Source of the DNA: Bacteroidota bacterium
Lineage (GTDB): Bacteria > Bacteroidota > Ignavibacteria > Kryptoniales > JAKASW01
Assembly: GCA_021794075.1 (NCBI GenBank)
Contig: JAJYRM010000009.1
Coordinates: forward strand, 1-64,000
Direction: 5' to 3'
DNA: 64,000 bases
The translations under genes and the position numbers were made by a program. How positions within the stretch are numbered: position 1 is the first letter of the stretch; each line of letters opens with the position of its first letter. This document shows positions 13,179 to 40,311 of this stretch, one piece after another. The notes beneath the pieces are model-generated. The model was given only the letters and a program-made list of their open reading frames with translations. It had not been told where the DNA came from and did not search any database.

Positions 13179-13490
13179 TCTCAAGGAGATAATGCCAAAT
13201 GTCAGTGTGAAGCGAACCCTCGCGAATGTATGAGAAGGGTCGATCACGTTCTCCCGAAAGGTTCCTTAAATAGCCTGAACGCCACGGACTCGGATAATCT
13301 CTAATATCAGCGTGGAAGACCACCTTAATCGAATGAGATAGTTGAGACTTTCGCGGGCTGAATTCTAAGCCTGACATGCATGAATGTCGGGCCAATTCCT
13401 TCTCTTCCAATTTCTCTTCCTTTTAAATCCCACCACCGTGACTTAAATTCTGTCTCGTAAAAACAGAGACAACCAACACTTTATCGAAAC
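13179..13490 (+). other. Intergenic region without a recognised gene
   Basis: About 310 nt between the sigma operon and the DUF218 gene. It opens with AAGGAG followed by an ATG frame of only 13 codons, which could be a decayed gene start. It contains one terminator-like hairpin (listed separately) and a small GTCTC/GAGAC hairpin just before the next gene. I see no RNA family. Confidence 0.5.
13370..13393 (+). terminator. Candidate terminator downstream of the sigma operon
   Basis: GCCTGACAT (13370-13378) pairs with ATGTCGGGC (13385-13393) over nine positions, including one G-T pair, around a 6-nt loop. A pyrimidine-rich tract (CAATTCCTTCTCTTCC) follows. It lies about 190 nt after the last gene of the sigma operon. 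The tract is not a pure T run, so efficiency is doubtful. Confidence 0.35.
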
Positions 13491-14420
13491 TTGAGATCTA
13501 AAGTTCTTTTGCACATAGCCGTGCTAGTCGCGCTTATCGCCATGTTGAAGATCTTCGCGCAAAGGGCAATCGCCCACGATTCCGAGACGGGTATACTAAC
13601 TTTCCGAAACATCCCTCTCGGGGCTGTGGTTCTTCTTGCAGTTGTCCTGATAGAACTGTTCAATAGGAGGCTTCCGATATTTCCGTATATCCTCGTGGTT
13701 GGTTCAGCCTTCGCCTTTTTTGCCGCTTCTTTCTACCTTCCCCCTAAGGGCCATTCTCACGAAGTCGCCATCGTGATCGCGTACCTCGCACTTCTGTTCT
13801 TGGTTTCGACGGCGCTGATTGTACCGTTCTCTTCAAATGTAAGAGTAGCAAACATTCTGGTAGTTCTCGTATTGATTTCAGGGATAGCTACGATTGCCGG
13901 ATTCATAAACACATTTTCAAATAGCGGCAGGTTTGATGGCAAGCCGGAGGCCGATGCAGCGGTGGTTTTGGGGAGCAGCGTTATCGGTCCTTACACACCT
14001 AGCCCAGACCTTAAAGGGAGGCTGGACGCGGCCGCCGAGCTTTACGATAAAGATGAGGCGAAGAAGATAGCAGTCACCGGCGGCACGAGACGGTTCGGCA
14101 CATTTGAGTCCGAAATCGGGGCGAGATACCTTGAACATATCGGCATTCCCGTCTCGGCAATTATCACAGAAGACAAAACAGAGAATACCATCGAGCAGGT
14201 GATTTATGCCAAGAGACATTTGATTGGCAAGTTGAAGATGAAGAGAATAGTGATCGTCAGCGATGGCTGGCACCTGCCGAGGGCGCTCCTGATGTGCAAA
14301 TGGCTGAATGTTAAAGCGGAAGGTTATGCGAGCAAGTACAAGATGTCGTTTCAGTCGGAGCTGTTCAATCGGTTCCGTGAATCTGCCGGATTGCAGGCAT
14401 ATATGTTATTTGGAGCTTGA
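13491..14420 (+). CDS. DUF218 / YdcF-family membrane protein
   Basis: A 309-residue protein with about five N-terminal membrane helices (residues 5-150) and a C-terminal DUF218 domain. Domain features are AAVVLGSSV, GRLDAAAELY, IAVTGGT, SEIGARYLEHIGIP, DKTENTIEQVIYAK and VIVSDGWHLPRALLM. SanA/YdcF/ElyC proteins of this fold act in envelope or peptidoglycan-precursor metabolism; the reaction is not established. TTG 13491 is the longest start; ATG 13542 would remove part of the first helix. NusB is encoded 48 nt downstream. Confidence 0.85.
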   Translation: MRSKVLLHIAVLVALIAMLKIFAQRAIAHDSETGILTFRNIPLGAVVLLAVVLIELFNRRLPIFPYILVVGSAFAFFAASFYLPPKGHSHEVAIVIAYLALLFLVSTALIVPFSSNVRVANILVVLVLISGIATIAGFINTFSNSGRFDGKPEADAAVVLGSSVIGPYTPSPDLKGRLDAAAELYDKDEAKKIAVTGGTRRFGTFESEIGARYLEHIGIPVSAIITEDKTENTIEQVIYAKRHLIGKLKMKRIVIVSDGWHLPRALLMCKWLNVKAEGYASKYKMSFQSELFNRFRESAGLQAYMLFGA

Positions 14421-31514: not shown

Positions 31515-31587
31515 ACGGGAAATCGATTTCGTTGATAAGGTGAGATAATGCTTATCACAATTGCCGGAGAAGCCACAGAGGAGACGA

Positions 31588-32502
31588 ATGTCTGAAACCA
31601 TTCTCATGACAGAGGGATTGAGCAAAAGGTTCGGCAACAGGTGGGCCGTGAAGGATCTCAACCTGGATGTTCGTGCAGGAGAGATTTTCGGATTTCTCGG
31701 GCCAAACGGCGCGGGGAAAAGCACGACCATCAGGATGATACTCACTCTCCTCCTTCCGACTTCAGGCAGCGTGAAACTTTTCGGCAAAGAAATTCGCCGG
31801 GCCAGGGCGGAAATACTCTCAAGGGTCTGTGGAATAGTCGAGAAGCCTGATTTCTATTTATTCCTTTCGGCATATAAGAACCTTGAGCTGCTCGGCTCAC
31901 TCTCGAGGAAAGTGACGCGAGATGAGATATTCGAGGCGCTTGAGATAGTCGGACTGAAGGCAAGGGCCGGAGATAAGGTTAAGACTTTCTCGCACGGTAT
32001 GAAGCAGAGACTTGGGATCGCGCAGGCGATCCTGACCAGGCCTGACCTCGTTATACTAGATGAGCCCACATCCGGCCTTGACCCTCAGGGGATGAAGGAG
32101 GTCCGCGAACTCATCCTCAGGCTCTCGCGGGAACATGGCACGACGGTTTTCCTGTCGTCGCATCTCCTTACTGAAGTCGAAGCGGTCGCGCAGAGAATGG
32201 CGGTACTGAATCACGGCTCGCTGATAGCCCAGGGAGCCGTCTCTGAGCTTATGAACGACGGCTCATCTTACTTTACTATTTCAGCGTCGCCGGTGGACAA
32301 GGCGTTGGAAATGTTACGAAATGTGGATTGGGTTGAGGTTGTCGCTACAGGGAACGGCATCGACGTTCGCATCGACTCGCGGAGGGCCGCCGAACTGAAC
32401 AGACTCCTTGTAACTTCCGGGATAGACGTGTCGGCGTTCGCAGCCAAGCGCACCCTCGAGGATTACTTCCTGAAAATTACGGAAGGAGCGTCAGAGGCAT
32501 GA
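31588..32502 (+). CDS. ABC transporter ATP-binding protein
   Basis: A 304-residue ABC ATPase. Walker A is GPNGAGKS, the signature motif SHGMKQRLGIA, Walker B LVILDEPTSGLD and the H-loop SSHLL. The ~85-residue C-terminal extension is typical of exporters of the CcmA/NatA class. GAGGAG stands 4 nt before ATG 31588. Its stop overlaps the permease start by 4 nt (ATGA). The pair should form an ABC-2 exporter; the cargo is unknown. Confidence 0.93.
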   Translation: MSETILMTEGLSKRFGNRWAVKDLNLDVRAGEIFGFLGPNGAGKSTTIRMILTLLLPTSGSVKLFGKEIRRARAEILSRVCGIVEKPDFYLFLSAYKNLELLGSLSRKVTRDEIFEALEIVGLKARAGDKVKTFSHGMKQRLGIAQAILTRPDLVILDEPTSGLDPQGMKEVRELILRLSREHGTTVFLSSHLLTEVEAVAQRMAVLNHGSLIAQGAVSELMNDGSSYFTISASPVDKALEMLRNVDWVEVVATGNGIDVRIDSRRAAELNRLLVTSGIDVSAFAAKRTLEDYFLKITEGASEA

Positions 32503-33341
32503 GTCTCTTCGCGATAGAAATTGAAAAGACGTACCTCCGTTGGCGGACCTACATCGGCTTCGCTGTCATACTCGTCGCCGTAATTCTGCTGGAAGTGATA
32601 ATCAAGCTTAATGAACCTCAGATGGCCCGCGCCTTCTCGGGCGGATTAAGTGCGGATTTCATCATCTCGGGGCATATCCTGAATGCATGGGTTATTACTG
32701 CTTTTGTCATGAATTCACTTTATATCCATGTCCCGTTTCTGATAGCGCTTGTCGCCGGTGACATGGTATCTTCGGAAGCCACATCGGGCACGCTTCGCTT
32801 CATGCTGATTCGCCCTCCATCACGATCCAAAATAATATCGGCCAAATTTCTCGCGATGCTTTTCTATACGGCAACGCTTATTATTTTTTTTGGTATACTT
32901 TGTGTTGGCATCGGCCTCATGTTATTTGGCGGAGGGGAGCTGATAAAGGTCCAGCCGGGTATGCCGCATATCGTCGTCCTCCCTGCGCGTCTTGCCGCTT
33001 CACAGACCGGTTTGGCTTTCATCGCCGCGATAATCTCCATGTCAGTGGTAGGCGCGCTGGCGTTTCTTTTCTCCACCCTCGTCGACAATTCGATTGGCCC
33101 GATAATAGGTTCGATAGCAGTTGTAATCATTTCATTCATACTCGGCAATCTTCCTTTCGAATTCACTGAATCGCTTCGCCCTTATTTGTTCACTACATAT
33201 ATGGGAATATGGCAACTCCTCCTTGACAATCCCGTCGATTGGCCTATGGTCCTCAAATACGCGCTCGCCCTGCTTGGTTACGATACTGTATTTTTCATGG
33301 TAGCTTATTATGTTTTTGTGAGAAAGGATATAAAGAGCTGA
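32499..33341 (+). CDS. ABC-2 type transporter permease
   Basis: A 280-residue protein with six membrane helices. The DMVSSEATSGTLRFMLIRPPSRSKI segment (seen in parts) between helices two and three is the coupling region of ABC-2 permeases of the NatB/Nos type. It is translated with the ATPase (4-nt overlap) and its TGA overlaps the start of the next gene. It probably dimerises or is the sole permease of this exporter. Confidence 0.88.
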   Translation: MSLFAIEIEKTYLRWRTYIGFAVILVAVILLEVIIKLNEPQMARAFSGGLSADFIISGHILNAWVITAFVMNSLYIHVPFLIALVAGDMVSSEATSGTLRFMLIRPPSRSKIISAKFLAMLFYTATLIIFFGILCVGIGLMLFGGGELIKVQPGMPHIVVLPARLAASQTGLAFIAAIISMSVVGALAFLFSTLVDNSIGPIIGSIAVVIISFILGNLPFEFTESLRPYLFTTYMGIWQLLLDNPVDWPMVLKYALALLGYDTVFFMVAYYVFVRKDIKS

Positions 33342-34141
33342 TGAACACGAATCGATGGATGTGCAGACAAGGGACTACCGGGCCGGAGTTCAACCCGACG
33401 CGTTGCGTGCGTCACCGGGGAGCAATTGGAAAGATCATGACTCTTTGCGGCTTGGTGATACCTCTCGTGTTTGGAGCATTAATTATCTTCGGGGCGTTTA
33501 ATCGAGCTAGGGCAGCGTCTTCAAGGGAAAAGGGGATAGCCTATCTTGAGAAGGCGATTCACAAATTCGACGGGATAAAAGATTACGTTGTCGACGTGAA
33601 GGTGCACATGGATATGAAGGGGGTCCAGATGCCTGACATGGAGGCGAAGGTGTATTTCAAGGAACCCGATAAGATTAAGATAAATTCGAAAGGGCTGTTC
33701 TTCATGCCGAAAGATGTTGGCGTGATCAATCCGCGTAATTTCAATCCAAATAAATTTGAGATCGCGCTGATAGACACTCTCACATATAACGGGAATCCCG
33801 CGGCGCAGCTGTCACTCGTTCCGAAGAGCGACGAGAGCGGGAACAAGAACATATTCCTGACGATCGATATGAAGGACTGGATTATAGTTCAAATCGCGAC
33901 GTCGCCTTCGCCGGGAAGAGAAGCGAGCGCGAAGATCAAGTACGGGATGTTTGATGGATTTCAGATGCCCGTGGAAGTGAAGGTCCATCTTGATGTCAGG
34001 AACCTAAAAGGAGAAGGGCGCATGCTTGGACCCGAACATGGGCGCCTGGATCAGTTGAACGGGAACGTAGACATCTTTTACTCTAATTACAGGATCAACA
34101 CCAATCTCCCTGACAAAATCTTTGAGAAGAAGGTTGAGTGA
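33341..34141 (+). CDS. LolA-like periplasmic lipoprotein-sorting protein
   Basis: A 266-residue exported protein. After a basic N terminus and a membrane segment (about 35-55, ending RARAAS), the rest forms an all-beta domain with features of the LolA/LolB-like fold: FDGIKDYVVDVKVHMDMK, VYFKEPDKIKINSKGL, IDMKDWIIVQI and NYRINTNLPDKIF. ATG 33341 overlaps the permease TGA; ATG 33437 would give a shorter signal peptide. It probably carries lipophilic cargo linked to the ABC exporter encoded just upstream; that link is inferred from the operon. Confidence 0.75.
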   Translation: MNTNRWMCRQGTTGPEFNPTRCVRHRGAIGKIMTLCGLVIPLVFGALIIFGAFNRARAASSREKGIAYLEKAIHKFDGIKDYVVDVKVHMDMKGVQMPDMEAKVYFKEPDKIKINSKGLFFMPKDVGVINPRNFNPNKFEIALIDTLTYNGNPAAQLSLVPKSDESGNKNIFLTIDMKDWIIVQIATSPSPGREASAKIKYGMFDGFQMPVEVKVHLDVRNLKGEGRMLGPEHGRLDQLNGNVDIFYSNYRINTNLPDKIFEKKVE

Positions 34142-34200
34142 GCCGTTCAGGTGAACTTCAAACCTTGAGGAGCTGTATCAAGTATTTGAGGAATTGGGAA

Positions 34201-34434
34201 ATGGAAGTCAATGCCGAGAAGATAGACGAAGCGGTTCTCGCGCTTCTTTACCTGACAAGCTTCGAAGAGTACGGAGCAACCCGCGCTTGGAAGAGTCACG
34301 ATTGGGAAGCGCTCAATCGCCTACATGAGAAGGGGCTGATAAGCGATCCGAAAAGCAAGTCTAAATCGGTCATCTTTTCCCCGGAGGGAGCCAAGCTGGG
34401 TGAAGAACTGTTTCACAAACTCTTTAGGAAGTAG
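34201..34434 (+). CDS. DUF6429-like small protein
   Basis: A 77-residue soluble protein: EKIDEAVLALLYLTSF, AWKSHDWEALNRLHEKGLI and SKSVIFSPEGAKLGEELF. This matches what I remember of the DUF6429 family, which looks like a winged-helix-sized domain of unknown role. ATG 34201 begins the conserved part; the frame before it overlaps the end of the LolA-like gene. It closes the plus-strand run before a 475-nt gap. Confidence 0.7.
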   Translation: MEVNAEKIDEAVLALLYLTSFEEYGATRAWKSHDWEALNRLHEKGLISDPKSKSKSVIFSPEGAKLGEELFHKLFRK

Positions 34435-34725
34435 CGTTAAGACGACGCCCAGCTTTCCGGGAAGCGGAAGGGCTGACACTCTTAATGGACGATTGGGTAC
34501 GGGCTTCAGCCGCCCGACGGAGGATTCTTCTTCAGGGTAGGATTCACCCCGCTCTTTACGCTCAAAAGACTATTTCCGTGGGGTGGCATTTCTCTGGGTG
34601 CCCCTTCTTAATTTCACGGTAATCTTGTTTATAGCTTGAGGTCATGTCAGTTCAGATGTTTCCTTGACTCTGTATCACAACATTCCAATGCGCGGCTTTT
34701 CCAGTAATACCACCTCCACTCCTTC
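34435..34725. other. Intergenic region without a recognised gene
   Basis: About 290 nt after the DUF6429 gene with scattered GC-rich short inverted repeats (for example GGGG...CCCC around 34580-34605) but no good terminator, no tRNA and no ORF of interest. The promoter and leader of mutS follow and are listed separately. Confidence 0.5.
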
Positions 34726-34754
34726 TTGATAAACTTTTCCCCCTCAAGTATATT
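34726..34754 (+). promoter_or_regulatory. Sigma70-type promoter of the mutS operon
   Basis: TTGATA (34726-34731) and TATATT (34749-34754) are separated by exactly 17 nt. Transcription should start near 34761, about 150 nt before the mutS ATG. It is the best -35/-10 pair seen in the window. Confidence 0.7.
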
Positions 34755-34760
34755 CTAAAC

Positions 34761-34872
34761 ACACGTGAGAAAGAGAGAGGAAAAGTTTGGACTTAGCTTT
34801 CCCTCCTGTGACAGCGATTGCCGTGGGAGGGTGGGGAAGTCTTCATACCTCGATCTGCCGGAGAAGTCGTGT
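34761..34872 (+). ncRNA. Candidate structured leader or small RNA before mutS
   Basis: Starting at the predicted transcript 5' end, four nested helices can be drawn: ACACG (34761-34765) with CGTGT (34868-34872); GAGG (34777-34780) with CCTC (34848-34851); GGACTT (34789-34794) with AAGTCT (34837-34842, one G-T); and CCCTCC (34801-34806) with GGAGGG (34826-34831). A competing pair TTCCC (34799-34803) with GGGAA (34834-34838) excludes the last. It matches no RNA family that I recognise. It may be a cis-regulatory leader or a separate small RNA; no T-rich terminator follows. Confidence 0.4.
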
Positions 34873-34909
34873 TAAACCAAATCTCAAAACGAGAACCTTA
34901 CGGAAGTGA

Positions 34910-37555
34910 ATGAGTAAAGGCGCTTCAGCTACGCCGTTGATGACGCAATATCGGAAGGTCAAAGACCGATATCCCGACGCAATCGTCCTTTTCAGGATGG
35001 GTGATTTTTATGAGACATTCGAAGACGATGCGAGGATTGCGAGCAGCGTCCTTTCGCTGACATTGACAAGGCGTTCCAACGGCGCCGCGTCCGATGTCCC
35101 GCTCGCAGGATTTCCTCATCATGCGATTAACCAATACCTACCGAAGCTTGTCAAAGCAGGTTACCGTGTCGCCGTCTGCGAGCAGCTCGAAGACCCGAAA
35201 CTTGCCAAGGGAATAGTAAAGCGAGACATTGTGGAAGTCGTTACACCGGGCGTGAATTTTTCGAGCGACTCCGCGAAGACGAACAATTATTTTGCCTCTC
35301 TCATCTCCGACGGTCAGGAATTCGGGCTCGGTTTTTGCGACGCGACGACCGGTGAGTTCGGCTTTGCACAGGGAGAACTCTCGGTACTCGAAACTTACTT
35401 GACTAAGATAGAGCCTCTTGAAGTCGTCCTTCCTCGCGAAGTGTCCGATGAACTTGAGCCTCTCGTTCAACGCGCACTGAAAAGAACGGTAATTACCAGG
35501 CGCGACGATTATATATTCAACTTCGATTACGCGTACGACAAGCTCATCCATCACTTTAATGTCCAGAGCCTCAAGGGATTCGGGCTCGAATCGAGAGAGC
35601 TTGCCGTGCGTGCCTCGGGCGCAGCGCTGGACTATCTTTCTGAGACACAGAACGGAAACCTGTCGCACATCGTTTCTCTGTCTGAGTTTAGCGTCTCCGG
35701 TTTTCTTGAGCTTAACTGGACGAGCCGAAGGCATCTAGAAATTGTCGATTCGACTTCCGACGGCGGTTCCACGCTTCTGAGTGTGCTGGATCTTACATCA
35801 ACGCCCATGGGGGCGAGACTTCTCAGGCGTACGCTCCTCCAGCCGATGAAGGAGGTTGCGTCAATAAACGCCAGGCTCGATGCGGTCGAGGAGGCAATCA
35901 AGAACCACTTGACTTCCAATGAGTTAGGCGAACTCCTCTCCGGATTTGGCGACCTTGAAAGACTCGTCGCAAGAGTCTCCACCAAGCGCGCGAATCCACG
36001 AGACATCGGATCGCTTCGCGTTATGCTTGAGAGGCTCCCTGGTATTAAGACCTTGGTTGAAAATTTCAAATTACCTGAGTGGCAATCTGCGAGTTCGGCT
36101 ATAAATCTTGAAGAGTCACTTCTTAAGCGCCTGAAGGACTCGCTGGCGGATGACCTCCCGGTTCAGGCGTCCGACGGCGGTGTGATAAGAAAGGGATACA
36201 ACGCCGAACTTGACGAGCTGCGCGGTCTGGCGTTCAATGCAAAGGATTGGATCGCCCGAATGCAGGTGACCGAGCGTGAACGCACAGGGATCTCATCGCT
36301 TAAAGTCGATTACAATTCCGTGTTTGGCTACTATATCGAAGTTACTAAGTCTAACCTTTCCCGAGTCCCGGAAAACTATATTCGGAAGCAGACGCTTGTC
36401 AACGCGGAGCGCTTCATCACTCAGGAACTGAAGGAGTATGAAGAGAAGGTACTCCACGCCGAGGAGAGAATACAGAAGCTGGAGCTCCAGCTTTTTGAAG
36501 AGCTTCGAGATGAGGTCGCCTGTCATTCTTCGTCTCTCCTGGCGACATCGCGAGCGATTGCGCTCTCCGACATGCTCATTGCATTTGCCAAGGGAGCCGC
36601 GGAGAACAATTACGTCAGACCGATTGTCGATGAATCACTCGATCTGGAAATTGAGGCGGGCCGCCATCCCGTGGTCGAGAAACTTCTTCCGAGCGGTGAA
36701 ACTTTCGTCCCGAATGACATCACTTTGAAGGAGGGGGAAGCTCAGATCGCGTTGATAACCGGTCCGAATATGGCAGGCAAAAGTGTTTACATAAGACAGG
36801 TGGCGGTAATCGTGCTCATGGCGCAGGCGGGCTCTTTCGTCCCGGCGAAGCGGGCGAGGATGGGCGTCGTCGATAAAATATTCACGAGGGTCGGAGCTTC
36901 CGATAACATAAGCGCGGGCGAAAGCACTTTCATGGTGGAAATGCAGGAGGCCGCGAACATATTGAACAACTCGACCACAAGAAGTATTGTTCTCCTGGAT
37001 GAGATAGGAAGAGGAACAAGCACGTTCGACGGGGTATCTATCGCGTGGTCCATAGTTGAGTACTTACACCAGAATCCCGCCAGGGCGGCGCGAACTCTTT
37101 TTGCCACGCATTACCACGAGTTGAACGAACTTTCCGAGTTGTACCCTCGCGTCAAAAACCTAAAGGCAGACGTCAGGGAGTACGGGGGCAAGGTGATCTT
37201 CCTTCACAAGATCGCTGAAGGGAGCGCCGACCACAGCTACGGCATACATGTCGCGGAGATGGCGGGACTTCCGAAAGCCGTGACGTCAAGGGCAAAGGAA
37301 ATCCTGAAAAATCTCGAATCATTTGAGTTATCCGCGACTGAATCGGCCGCGGCTTCGGCGCAGCAGCCAGTGAGGATGCCGAAACCGCGAAGGGTTGTGC
37401 CGAAAAGCAGGGAAGGCGAAATGCAGATAGAGCTATTCTCCATCGGAGATGAGGAGCTCAGAAAAAAAATTGAAGGCGTGGATCTCAACAATCTTACGCC
37501 AGTTGAAGCGCTCAATAAGATCGCCGAGTTCAAAAAGATCATAGCGAAGGAGTAA
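34910..37555 (+). CDS. mutS: DNA mismatch repair protein MutS
   Basis: An 881-residue mismatch-recognition ATPase of usual MutS length. The N-terminal mismatch-binding motif is MGDFYETF. The core and clamp follow (FGYYIEVTKSN). The ATPase has TGPNMAGKSVYIRQ (Walker A), LLDEIGRGTSTFDG (Walker B and signature) and FATHYHEL. A helix-turn-helix dimer region (AEGSADHSYGIHVAEMAGLP) and a C-terminal tail with EALNKIAEFKK end the protein. ATG 34910 follows a long leader. It is the first gene of a six-gene run, with HerA 2 nt after its stop. Confidence 0.97.
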   Translation: MSKGASATPLMTQYRKVKDRYPDAIVLFRMGDFYETFEDDARIASSVLSLTLTRRSNGAASDVPLAGFPHHAINQYLPKLVKAGYRVAVCEQLEDPKLAKGIVKRDIVEVVTPGVNFSSDSAKTNNYFASLISDGQEFGLGFCDATTGEFGFAQGELSVLETYLTKIEPLEVVLPREVSDELEPLVQRALKRTVITRRDDYIFNFDYAYDKLIHHFNVQSLKGFGLESRELAVRASGAALDYLSETQNGNLSHIVSLSEFSVSGFLELNWTSRRHLEIVDSTSDGGSTLLSVLDLTSTPMGARLLRRTLLQPMKEVASINARLDAVEEAIKNHLTSNELGELLSGFGDLERLVARVSTKRANPRDIGSLRVMLERLPGIKTLVENFKLPEWQSASSAINLEESLLKRLKDSLADDLPVQASDGGVIRKGYNAELDELRGLAFNAKDWIARMQVTERERTGISSLKVDYNSVFGYYIEVTKSNLSRVPENYIRKQTLVNAERFITQELKEYEEKVLHAEERIQKLELQLFEELRDEVACHSSSLLATSRAIALSDMLIAFAKGAAENNYVRPIVDESLDLEIEAGRHPVVEKLLPSGETFVPNDITLKEGEAQIALITGPNMAGKSVYIRQVAVIVLMAQAGSFVPAKRARMGVVDKIFTRVGASDNISAGESTFMVEMQEAANILNNSTTRSIVLLDEIGRGTSTFDGVSIAWSIVEYLHQNPARAARTLFATHYHELNELSELYPRVKNLKADVREYGGKVIFLHKIAEGSADHSYGIHVAEMAGLPKAVTSRAKEILKNLESFELSATESAAASAQQPVRMPKPRRVVPKSREGEMQIELFSIGDEELRKKIEGVDLNNLTPVEALNKIAEFKKIIAKE

Positions 37556-37557
37556 AA

Positions 37558-39078
37558 ATGGAACCAACGGGCAAAGTCGTGTCGATTCACGGAGCCACCA
37601 TCGTCGGAGAGACAAACTCCGCGCAGACCTTCAGTGTCGGTTCCTACGTCTCAGTCATCTTGGAGGAGAGCAAGCTTCTCGGTGTGATAACGTCACTGGA
37701 ACTCGCGAGCGAAGAACGAATCAGATTCACCGCCAACCTCTTCGGAAAGTTCAGCGGTGGAAGGTACTCGCGCGGGACGGAGGAACTCCCCTATCCAGGC
37801 GCCCCCATTGAGGTTCCGGAAGACAGCGAGCTCGACTTGATATTCAACACGCACAGGAGATACGACTTCGCGTTGGGTGAAATTTCTCTCTTGAAGGGGA
37901 AAAGAAATTACATGGACCCTGACCGGTTCTTCAGCAGACATGTATCCGTCGTTGGAGCTACGGGGTCCGGCAAATCGTGCGCGGTGGCCACGATACTTCA
38001 GAAAGTCGCAAAACTCCCGGGCGCGAGAATCATCCTTCTCGATCTGCACGATGAGTACAGCGAAGCGTTCGGAGATCTGGCCGAGAAGGTGAATATCGGC
38101 GACTTCGAGCTTCCATACTGGACGATGAACTTCGACGAGCTCGTGGAGACTTTTATTGATCCGGATGACCCGGCGGCGAAGAGCGAAGCGGTCGTCATGT
38201 CTGAAATTCTGTTAAACAGCAAACGATCGAAGAACGTCGCGTACAAAGACAGCCTTACGATTGATTCGCCGGTATATTTCGATTTGTCGGATATCAAGGT
38301 AAAGATGCAGGCGCTCGATACCGAGAGACTGCCGAACGGGAAGGAAGGACCCTTCTACGGAAGTTTCACGAGGTTCCTTTTTAAGTTCGATACGAAAGTG
38401 AACGACAAGAGGTTCGAGTTTCTGTTCAAGCCGAAGAAGTTCAAGACCACGGAAACGTTTTCCCAATTCCTGGAGCTCCTTTTCGGGTTGAAGTCTGGCA
38501 AATCGCTGGTCGTGCTGAATCTAAGCAACGTGCCTCCGGAAGTAATCAACGCGATAGCTTCGCTTCTTTCCAGACTTGTCTTCGATTTTAACATGTGGAA
38601 CAAATATCGCGCGAACCTTCCCATACTGCTTGTTCTCGAAGAGGCCCATAACTATTTGAACACGAGAAATTCATCGCAGACCGCGCGGCGGACCATCGAA
38701 CGCGTTGTCAAAGAAGGAAGAAAGTACGGCGTGAGCGTAATGATAGTCAGTCAGCGCCCTCTGGACATAGCCGAATCGATAATGTCGCAATGCACGAACT
38801 TTGTTGTGATGCGCTTGTCGAACCCCGATGACCAGGCGTACATCGGGAAGCTCGTGCCTGAATCCATGGTGGACCTGTTGGACATCATTCCCGCACTCAA
38901 ACAGGGAGAGGCGCTCCTGATTGGGGACGCGTGCATCCTTCCGGTCCGTACAAAACTTGATGCTCCCGATCCGTTTCCCAAAAGCAAGGACGTTGACTTC
39001 TACACCAAGTGGAGTATCCTCCCTCCCGCGGTGGATCTTGACAATGTAGTAGAACGTTGGAGAAAGATTAGTTACTAA
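37558..39078 (+). CDS. HerA-like ATPase (DUF87/FtsK-HerA superfamily)
   Basis: A 506-residue hexameric-type ATPase. An N-terminal HAS-barrel-like beta domain (1-100) precedes Walker A GATGSGKS (133-140), Walker B VLEEAH (Glu361, Glu362) and SQRP, followed by the arginine-bearing ERVVKEGRKYGVSVM region. It belongs to the HerA/DUF87 group that drives DNA end resection or translocation. The usual partner NurA, or Sir2/nuclease partners of defence types, is absent. Its neighbours are mutS and a PP2C phosphatase. It begins 2 nt after mutS and ends directly before the next ATG. Confidence 0.85.
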   Translation: MEPTGKVVSIHGATIVGETNSAQTFSVGSYVSVILEESKLLGVITSLELASEERIRFTANLFGKFSGGRYSRGTEELPYPGAPIEVPEDSELDLIFNTHRRYDFALGEISLLKGKRNYMDPDRFFSRHVSVVGATGSGKSCAVATILQKVAKLPGARIILLDLHDEYSEAFGDLAEKVNIGDFELPYWTMNFDELVETFIDPDDPAAKSEAVVMSEILLNSKRSKNVAYKDSLTIDSPVYFDLSDIKVKMQALDTERLPNGKEGPFYGSFTRFLFKFDTKVNDKRFEFLFKPKKFKTTETFSQFLELLFGLKSGKSLVVLNLSNVPPEVINAIASLLSRLVFDFNMWNKYRANLPILLVLEEAHNYLNTRNSSQTARRTIERVVKEGRKYGVSVMIVSQRPLDIAESIMSQCTNFVVMRLSNPDDQAYIGKLVPESMVDLLDIIPALKQGEALLIGDACILPVRTKLDAPDPFPKSKDVDFYTKWSILPPAVDLDNVVERWRKISY

Positions 39079-40311
39079 ATGAATCAAAGACAATTATTTC
39101 ACGCCATCGAACATGTCGCTTCGAAAGATTACAGGTCAGACGAAGAGTTACTTGAGAGTGTCGTACGAGAGATAGCAAATTCGGATCAGATACGGATTAA
39201 GGGGGGAAGGATATGGAAGCTTATTCCCCGAAAGAATGCCTATATTCTCGTGCGCCAGCTTGGCAAGATGAAGCCGTTGGAAGAAAATTATATGATAAAA
39301 GTCTCGGACTATCCGGATTTTATTAGGATCGGGAACGAGAAGACGCTTCTGAGTCTCGAGAAGAATGCCGACCTCCGGAAGGGAGGCATAATGAAATACT
39401 CCGCCACGGGCGTCGGCGACAAAACCAAGGTTAAGGGGATACCGCTGTACCAGTACATTCTCTCTTTCAATACCGAGGAAGAGGACCAGGGGCTTTTCGA
39501 TACTCTAAACGTCATCGGAAGCGCCGTAACGGCGGTGCTGCGCGGAAGACACGCGCTCGCGCGCACGAAGCAGCTTGAACAGGATATGGATCAAGCGCGA
39601 GAGATTCAGCGAAGCATCTTGCCTGAGCATGAGTATAAGTACGGCGCGTTTCAACTTTTCGGCGTGTCGCTGCCGGAACGAGTGGTCGGAGGAGATTTCT
39701 TCGACTACATTACTGCCGGCGAGGAAGGAGAATGGCTTGGAGTGGCCGTTGGAGACGCGGCCAGCAAAGGACTCAGTGCCGCCGTCGAAGCATTGTACGT
39801 CTCCGGCGCCCTGAAAATGGGCGTAGAGCTCCAAACAAATATGTCCTCACTCGTCCGGAAGATTAATAATCTCGTGAACTCGACTTTCTCCGATTCCCGT
39901 TTTGTTACCCTCTTCTACGGCGAGTTCACCGACAGCAAGAGCGGACTCTTTCTCTACGTAAATGCCGGACATAATCCTCCGATGTTTTATCGGAAATCTA
40001 CAGGAGAGGTTACGCAGTTAATTACGACGGGACCGGCTCTCGGCATCGCGCCGAACGCCAAGTACAGCATTGGAAACGTCAATTTCGAGAAGGACGACGT
40101 GTTACTACTTTACACCGACGGCGTGTCCGAAGCGAGCGACAGCAATTTCACCCTGTACGGCGAAGAAAAGTTGAAGAAAAAACTCTCGGAAGTGGCAAGC
40201 CTCGAACCGAAGAGAATGTGTTACGAAATACTCGACTCAGTCCAGCGGTTTTCCGCGTCTTCGGCTTATGCGGACGATAAGACGATAGTCGTGATAAAGA
40301 GAATGGCATAG
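39079..40311 (+). CDS. PP2C-type (SpoIIE/RsbU) protein phosphatase
   Basis: A 410-residue signalling phosphatase. Residues 1-165 form a sensory part (GAF-like in pattern: ILSFNTEEEDQGLFDTLN...). A coiled-coil linker (KQLEQDMDQAREIQRSILP) is typical of RsbU-type enzymes, and the catalytic domain has GGDFFDY, GDAASKGLSAA, NAGHNPP and LLLYTDGVSEA with its Mn-binding Asp residues. Such phosphatases act on anti-anti-sigma (STAS) proteins, but none is encoded nearby. ATG 39079 follows the HerA stop directly. Confidence 0.9.
   Translation: MNQRQLFHAIEHVASKDYRSDEELLESVVREIANSDQIRIKGGRIWKLIPRKNAYILVRQLGKMKPLEENYMIKVSDYPDFIRIGNEKTLLSLEKNADLRKGGIMKYSATGVGDKTKVKGIPLYQYILSFNTEEEDQGLFDTLNVIGSAVTAVLRGRHALARTKQLEQDMDQAREIQRSILPEHEYKYGAFQLFGVSLPERVVGGDFFDYITAGEEGEWLGVAVGDAASKGLSAAVEALYVSGALKMGVELQTNMSSLVRKINNLVNSTFSDSRFVTLFYGEFTDSKSGLFLYVNAGHNPPMFYRKSTGEVTQLITTGPALGIAPNAKYSIGNVNFEKDDVLLLYTDGVSEASDSNFTLYGEEKLKKKLSEVASLEPKRMCYEILDSVQRFSASSAYADDKTIVVIKRMA

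Follow-up and report, generated by a model that had tools for sequence, protein, structure and literature searches.

A candidate genus-specific mRNA leader upstream of mutS in Bacteroidota

The mutS locus and the genomes compared

The window, meaning the whole 64,000-nucleotide stretch of DNA that was analysed, carries mutS on the forward strand (34910..37555). The gene begins with ATGA and encodes an 881-aa protein with MutS domains I–V as recognised by Pfam. Upstream of it lie a promoter block, a purine tract, a hairpin and a short open frame. A HerA-like DUF87 protein and then a SpoIIE-type phosphatase are encoded 3' of mutS. Most relatives share the gene order across 31561-40311, namely ABC transporter ATPase, permease, the gene at 33239, mutS, HerA-like protein and SpoIIE-type phosphatase; in the regions examined from G011 and G004 only its downstream part is kept. 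A further ORF, of 98 aa and with a DUF6429 domain (PF20008; 34138-34434), separates mutS from the gene that ends at 34141; it found no match at E 1e-10 in the mutS regions of 12 relatives.

The window's genome (G000; 4.5 Mb in 240 contigs) was compared with 12 relatives of the same genus, which makes a genus set of 13 genomes, and a class-wide set of 391 genomes was also used. Matches to the MutS protein were found in 60/61 genomes, most of them to full MutS, and the nearest named match in the protein search was Candidatus Kryptonium (54% identity). Several alignments used 8/13 or 5/13 genomes, depending on the test, and the identity profile of the leader was computed from 10/13. The upstream regions of recA, mutL and rpoD were intended as non-coding controls. 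Those of recA and mutL were dropped because their conserved stretches presumably lie within the preceding genes, as judged from the usual gene order and from the appearance of the sequence. Conservation controls were also taken window-wide, most with fewer genomes and several with two or three only, and some of these blocks may overlap unlisted coding sequence.

The promoter upstream of mutS

A TTGATA-N17-TATATT promoter (34726-34754) had been predicted in a sequence-only reading of this DNA. Taken alone the match is at chance level, as one was found in 2.5 kb and shuffles average 2.0. The promoter is nevertheless judged real because 13/13 genus genomes keep the block, and the prediction is thus borne out. 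The whole block, TTGATAAACTTT-N4-CCTNAAGTATATTYTAA, occupies 34724..34759 on the forward strand, with hexamers at 34726-34731 and 34749-34754 and a spacer that is also conserved. In a pattern search that allowed up to 3 mismatches, TTGATAAACTTTNNNNCCTNAAGTATATTYTAA, spacer included, was present in exactly one copy per genome, just 5' of mutS, in 13/13 genus genomes; the remaining 378 of the 391 class genomes had no copy. With a looser pattern, G000 and G006 each showed a single additional weak site. No second promoter or leader copy was found elsewhere within the E-value and mismatch limits used.

When compared with 12 relatives, the best 33-base block 5' of mutS is identical at 29.9/33 positions on average. 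The corresponding values for three intergenic controls, each compared with 11-12 relatives, are all lower (22.1, 22.6 and 24.5 of 33), with the reservation that some control blocks in this 33-base set may overlap unlisted coding sequence. In shuffled mutS upstream regions the best 33-base block averages 16.9. By comparison, then, the promoter is conserved, single-copy and confined to mutS, and no other part of the finding is as well supported. A dedicated promoter is placed here by comparison and is presumably active.

Core sigma contacts do not need a conserved spacer, and in this genus promoter conservation extends through it. An imperfect inverted repeat, TAAACTT-N9-AAGTATA (34730..34752, no strand assigned), spans the spacer. 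Its symmetric pattern occurs without mismatch in 12/13 genomes and with one mismatch in G001. A comparable repeat often arises in shuffled promoters (between 3 and 325 times in 500 trials, according to genome), so an operator at this site is considered a weak possibility. When one mismatch was allowed, the pattern also gave sporadic matches elsewhere, in most genomes fewer than its reversed control.

Bacteroidetes promoters are described as -33/-7 elements with TTTG / TANNTTTG (PMC6847099). By eye the genus promoter matches this consensus in part. TATATTCT or TATATTTT fits TANNTT, whereas the TG that ends the -7 element has no counterpart and TTTG reads CTTG here. The mutS promoter of the genus differs further in that its spacer is conserved as well. 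The best RpoD matches of the genus fall below the RpoD_Cterm cut-off in 13/13 genomes and lie in an open frame of 285-287 aa in 11. We infer that the genus has a Bacteroidetes-type sigma factor.

Two minor observations concern upstream DNA. The mutS promoter of G011 and G004 is immediately preceded by a tandem repeat with ATTCTATTGTCTTCCACGGACTCTCTA in its unit (L013 and L014, about 1240-1390). In the window, the second best conserved upstream block (24.5/33) among those compared in 11-12 relatives lies at about 13421-13453, 70 bases 5' of the gene at 13491.

The leader, its open frame and its hairpin

From the promoter spacing, the transcript is predicted to start at 34761 on the forward strand. 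The earlier proposal of a mutS mRNA leader that starts at the promoter is well supported by comparison, through the promoter, the purine tract and conservation above controls. The tract, AGAGAGAGGA (34772..34781, forward strand), is Shine-Dalgarno-like, follows immediately after the promoter and is kept almost throughout the genus; mean pairwise identity in the 34772-34783 bin is 0.95 (10 genomes). Shine-Dalgarno-like words are enriched at -4 to -20 in the window, where they precede 21/48 genes versus 5-9/48 further upstream. In general, however, Bacteroidetes reportedly have no Shine-Dalgarno sequences (PMC6847099). The sequence-only reading missed both the conserved tract and a frame that terminates at the mutS start codon.

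Beyond the tract conservation is soon lost. Identity falls to 0.29-0.56 over 34832-34891 (10 genomes); the body of the leader is fast-evolving. G011 and G004 retain promoter and tract and have lost most of the leader, with 53 nt from tract to ATG. These observations speak for an alternative in which the promoter and the first ~25 transcribed bases alone are under selection, the remaining leader is spacer, and frames and hairpins are incidental. We regard this alternative as rather unlikely. It does not account well for the near-constant distance from tract to ATG in 10/13 genomes (126, 128, 129 or 132 nt; 112 nt in G005), which is divisible by 3 in 8 of these 10 leaders.

Also at odds with mere spacer is the frame that closes with a TGA overlapping the mutS ATG (ATGA). 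It is stop-free from the tract to mutS in G009, G012, G008, G010, G003, G002 and G007. These are 7/13 genomes, or 7/11 long leaders, and dinucleotide shuffles expect 1.6/11. The frame was selected after the data were seen, and the P value of 0.0002 (0.0008 or 0.001 without close relatives) is uncorrected for frame choice; at P about 0.001 its openness exceeds chance. Of the two remaining frames, one is free of stops in G006 alone and the other in G005 alone. The ATGA frame is frameshifted in G000 and G006 and carries a stop in G001. The two genomes without a long leader also lack ATGA, and the 53-nt stretch of G011 is open in the same phase. A GTG or TTG stands exactly 4 nt past the tract in 7/13 genomes. 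The complete arrangement of tract, GTG/TTG start and frame open to ATGA is found in 4/13, or in 5 if a CTG start is admitted.

In the window's genome the frame that is open in relatives, ending at TGA 34911-34913, is broken at 34829..34831 (forward strand), where pairwise alignment and frame tables show GGG for the GGGG of G012. Another short frame (34787..34909, forward strand) starts with TTG, translates to 40 aa and ends in a TGA that abuts the mutS ATG. That frame is not conserved in relatives.

Codon usage in the leader frame is not coding-like, being about -0.1 per codon in most genomes, as in shuffles, and 0.13 ± 0.08 in pieces of mutS. Third codon positions show no excess of substitutions. 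A conserved small protein, for which codon usage and third-position bias both fail, is not supported, and the same two results favour the spacer alternative. The residue similarity specific to this frame is weak, and stops in the other frames explain part of it. The stop overlaps or abuts the main start, as in coupled ORFs, in the form of ATGA in 7/13 genomes and of TGA next to ATG in G000. A frame that is kept while its residues are not fits translational coupling better than a functional peptide, on evidence of moderate strength. The open ATGA frame suggests that mutS is translationally coupled to its leader.

Four nested helices had been drawn across the leader. They are not borne out, as the predicted leader (34761-34909) folds in an ordinary way (MFE -41.4 kcal/mol; z -0.39; 72/200 dinucleotide shuffles fold at least as well) and relatives conserve one hairpin only. 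This hairpin lies at 34797..34835 on the forward strand, with a core of CCCTCC (34801-34806) and GGAGGG (34826-34831). The idea of a structured mutS leader therefore survives in part, as an mRNA leader from the promoter with one hairpin in a subset of genomes; the whole leader is not structured.

A 54-nt piece around the stem has a z of -2.65 versus mononucleotide shuffles. The RNAalifold consensus of 8/13 genomes, from which G005, G007, G001, G011 and G004 were excluded for poor alignment across the hairpin, is the single hairpin 34797-34835 at -7.5 kcal/mol. None of 300 column shuffles was as good (z -4.9 to -5.5). The same test gave z 0.18 ± 0.97 for 21 mutS coding windows, with a minimum of -2.43, and 0.16 to 0.42 for three other upstream regions. 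Paired cells make up 83.9% in the hairpin versus 75.6% in shuffles (0/500 as high) and 56-64% when the structure is slid, and 7/14 pairs are doubly changed. The mRNA strand alone folds; the reverse strand of the hairpin region gave no fold signal. The hairpin signal thus exceeds chance, which counts against spacer alone. It also argues for a leader that is untranslated and structured, in which the hairpin would bind a protein or shield the 5' end and so control mutS output.

This last alternative is unlikely in our estimation, as three results weaken it. The z value shrinks to -1.8 or -2.4 when one member of the close clade is kept and to -0.8 without the window's close clade. When models from five genomes were tried on the eight others, structure recognised the held-out genomes no better than sequence alone. 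Finally, the hairpin as modelled is absent in 5/13 genomes, two of which have also lost most of the leader. The 8-genome model finds it in those 8, gives a weak partial match in G001 (22.7 bits, E 0.0014) and finds nothing at the mutS leader of G005, G007, G011 and G004. The CCCTCC/GGAGGG stem of the earlier reading is present and has comparative support in 8 genomes, but it fails the held-out test. In a weaker test of the 6-bp stem alone, covariation was equalled by 54/500 shuffles. Support for the hairpin comes from five related genomes. By comparison it is probably real in G000, G009, G012, G008 and G010 and uncertain beyond those five.

The existence of a promoter and a hairpin, together with a segment that had been noted as loosely cobalamin-riboswitch-like, could also be read as a riboswitch or a separate small RNA situated 5' of mutS by chance. 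The Rfam covariance models gave no match at gathering score on the leader stretch. When the limit was relaxed to E 10, the only matches were two of chance level, to SNORA7 and RAGATH-25. The cobalamin likeness is therefore not borne out, and a riboswitch or other known RNA family is rejected for want of a credible match. No terminator-like site was found between promoter and mutS, the hairpin model found no second good copy in the window, and a DNA search found no second copy of the leader in the genome; a separate small RNA is therefore unlikely. Two relatives have mostly lost the segment, and no large conserved core is present. Overall we think it very improbable that either kind of RNA lies here.

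Possible control of mutS and known systems

The region is most likely an mRNA leader specific to one Bacteroidota genus. Our tentative preference is for a genus-specific mutS leader that combines the conserved promoter, a coupled leader ORF and the hairpin. Speaking against it are the codon usage and substitution pattern of the frame, the count of 4/13 for the complete arrangement, the selection of the frame from the data themselves and the reported lack of Shine-Dalgarno sequences in Bacteroidetes. RNA polymerase would start at the dedicated, strongly conserved promoter. Ribosomes would bind at the AGAGAGAGGA tract, which lies only a few bases into the transcript, and translate a short, fast-changing leader ORF of about 40 codons. 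With its stop on or beside the mutS ATG, translation of mutS would be coupled to that of the leader. The hairpin falls in the first third of the leader ORF and is seen chiefly in five related genomes; it may adjust ribosome loading or the stability of the mRNA. In the window's genome, where one base breaks the frame of the relatives, it is the frame from TTG 34787 that reaches a TGA abutting the ATG.

A more elaborate arrangement, which we hold to be quite improbable, is a control module with mutS as its one target. It would comprise a unique and near-invariant promoter with a dyad operator in its spacer, a dedicated regulator that reads it, and a coupled leader ORF gated by the hairpin. If this were true, the level of mismatch repair, hence the mutation rate, would be set by a signal together with ribosome supply.

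MutS level influences mutation rate, and to our knowledge most of what is known about mutS control comes from E. coli. There Hfq, together with the sRNAs ArcZ and SdsR, exerts repression through the mutS 5' UTR (PMC11331407). The likeness to the leader proposed here is control of mutS via its mRNA leader; the E. coli system differs in acting near the ribosome-binding site and in belonging to Enterobacterales (PMC11331407). As far as Rfam shows, the two leader sequences are unrelated. A parallel for the reading frame is E. coli iraD, where a leader ORF is shown by experiment to be translationally coupled, with CsrA as regulator (PMC5574718). In both, a short leader ORF ends with a stop codon that overlaps the main gene's start codon, whereas the mutS leader ORF is predicted from sequence, evolves rapidly and is disrupted in some genomes. 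No equivalent mutS leader in Bacteroidota was found in the open-access literature searched.

The chief interest lies in the unusual conservation of a promoter used for mutS only. Its conservation across the genus suggests tight selection on mismatch-repair expression. The leader also offers a simple reporter test of the coupling of mutS to the leader ORF.

Further MutS-like sequence was seen in 2/13 genus genomes, in the form of adjacent open frames, ~540-580 aa long and arranged in pairs, that match the MutS ATPase domain weakly. The pairs are at G009:C42 28174-30188, G002:C82 12490-14450 and G002:C88 6369-8323.
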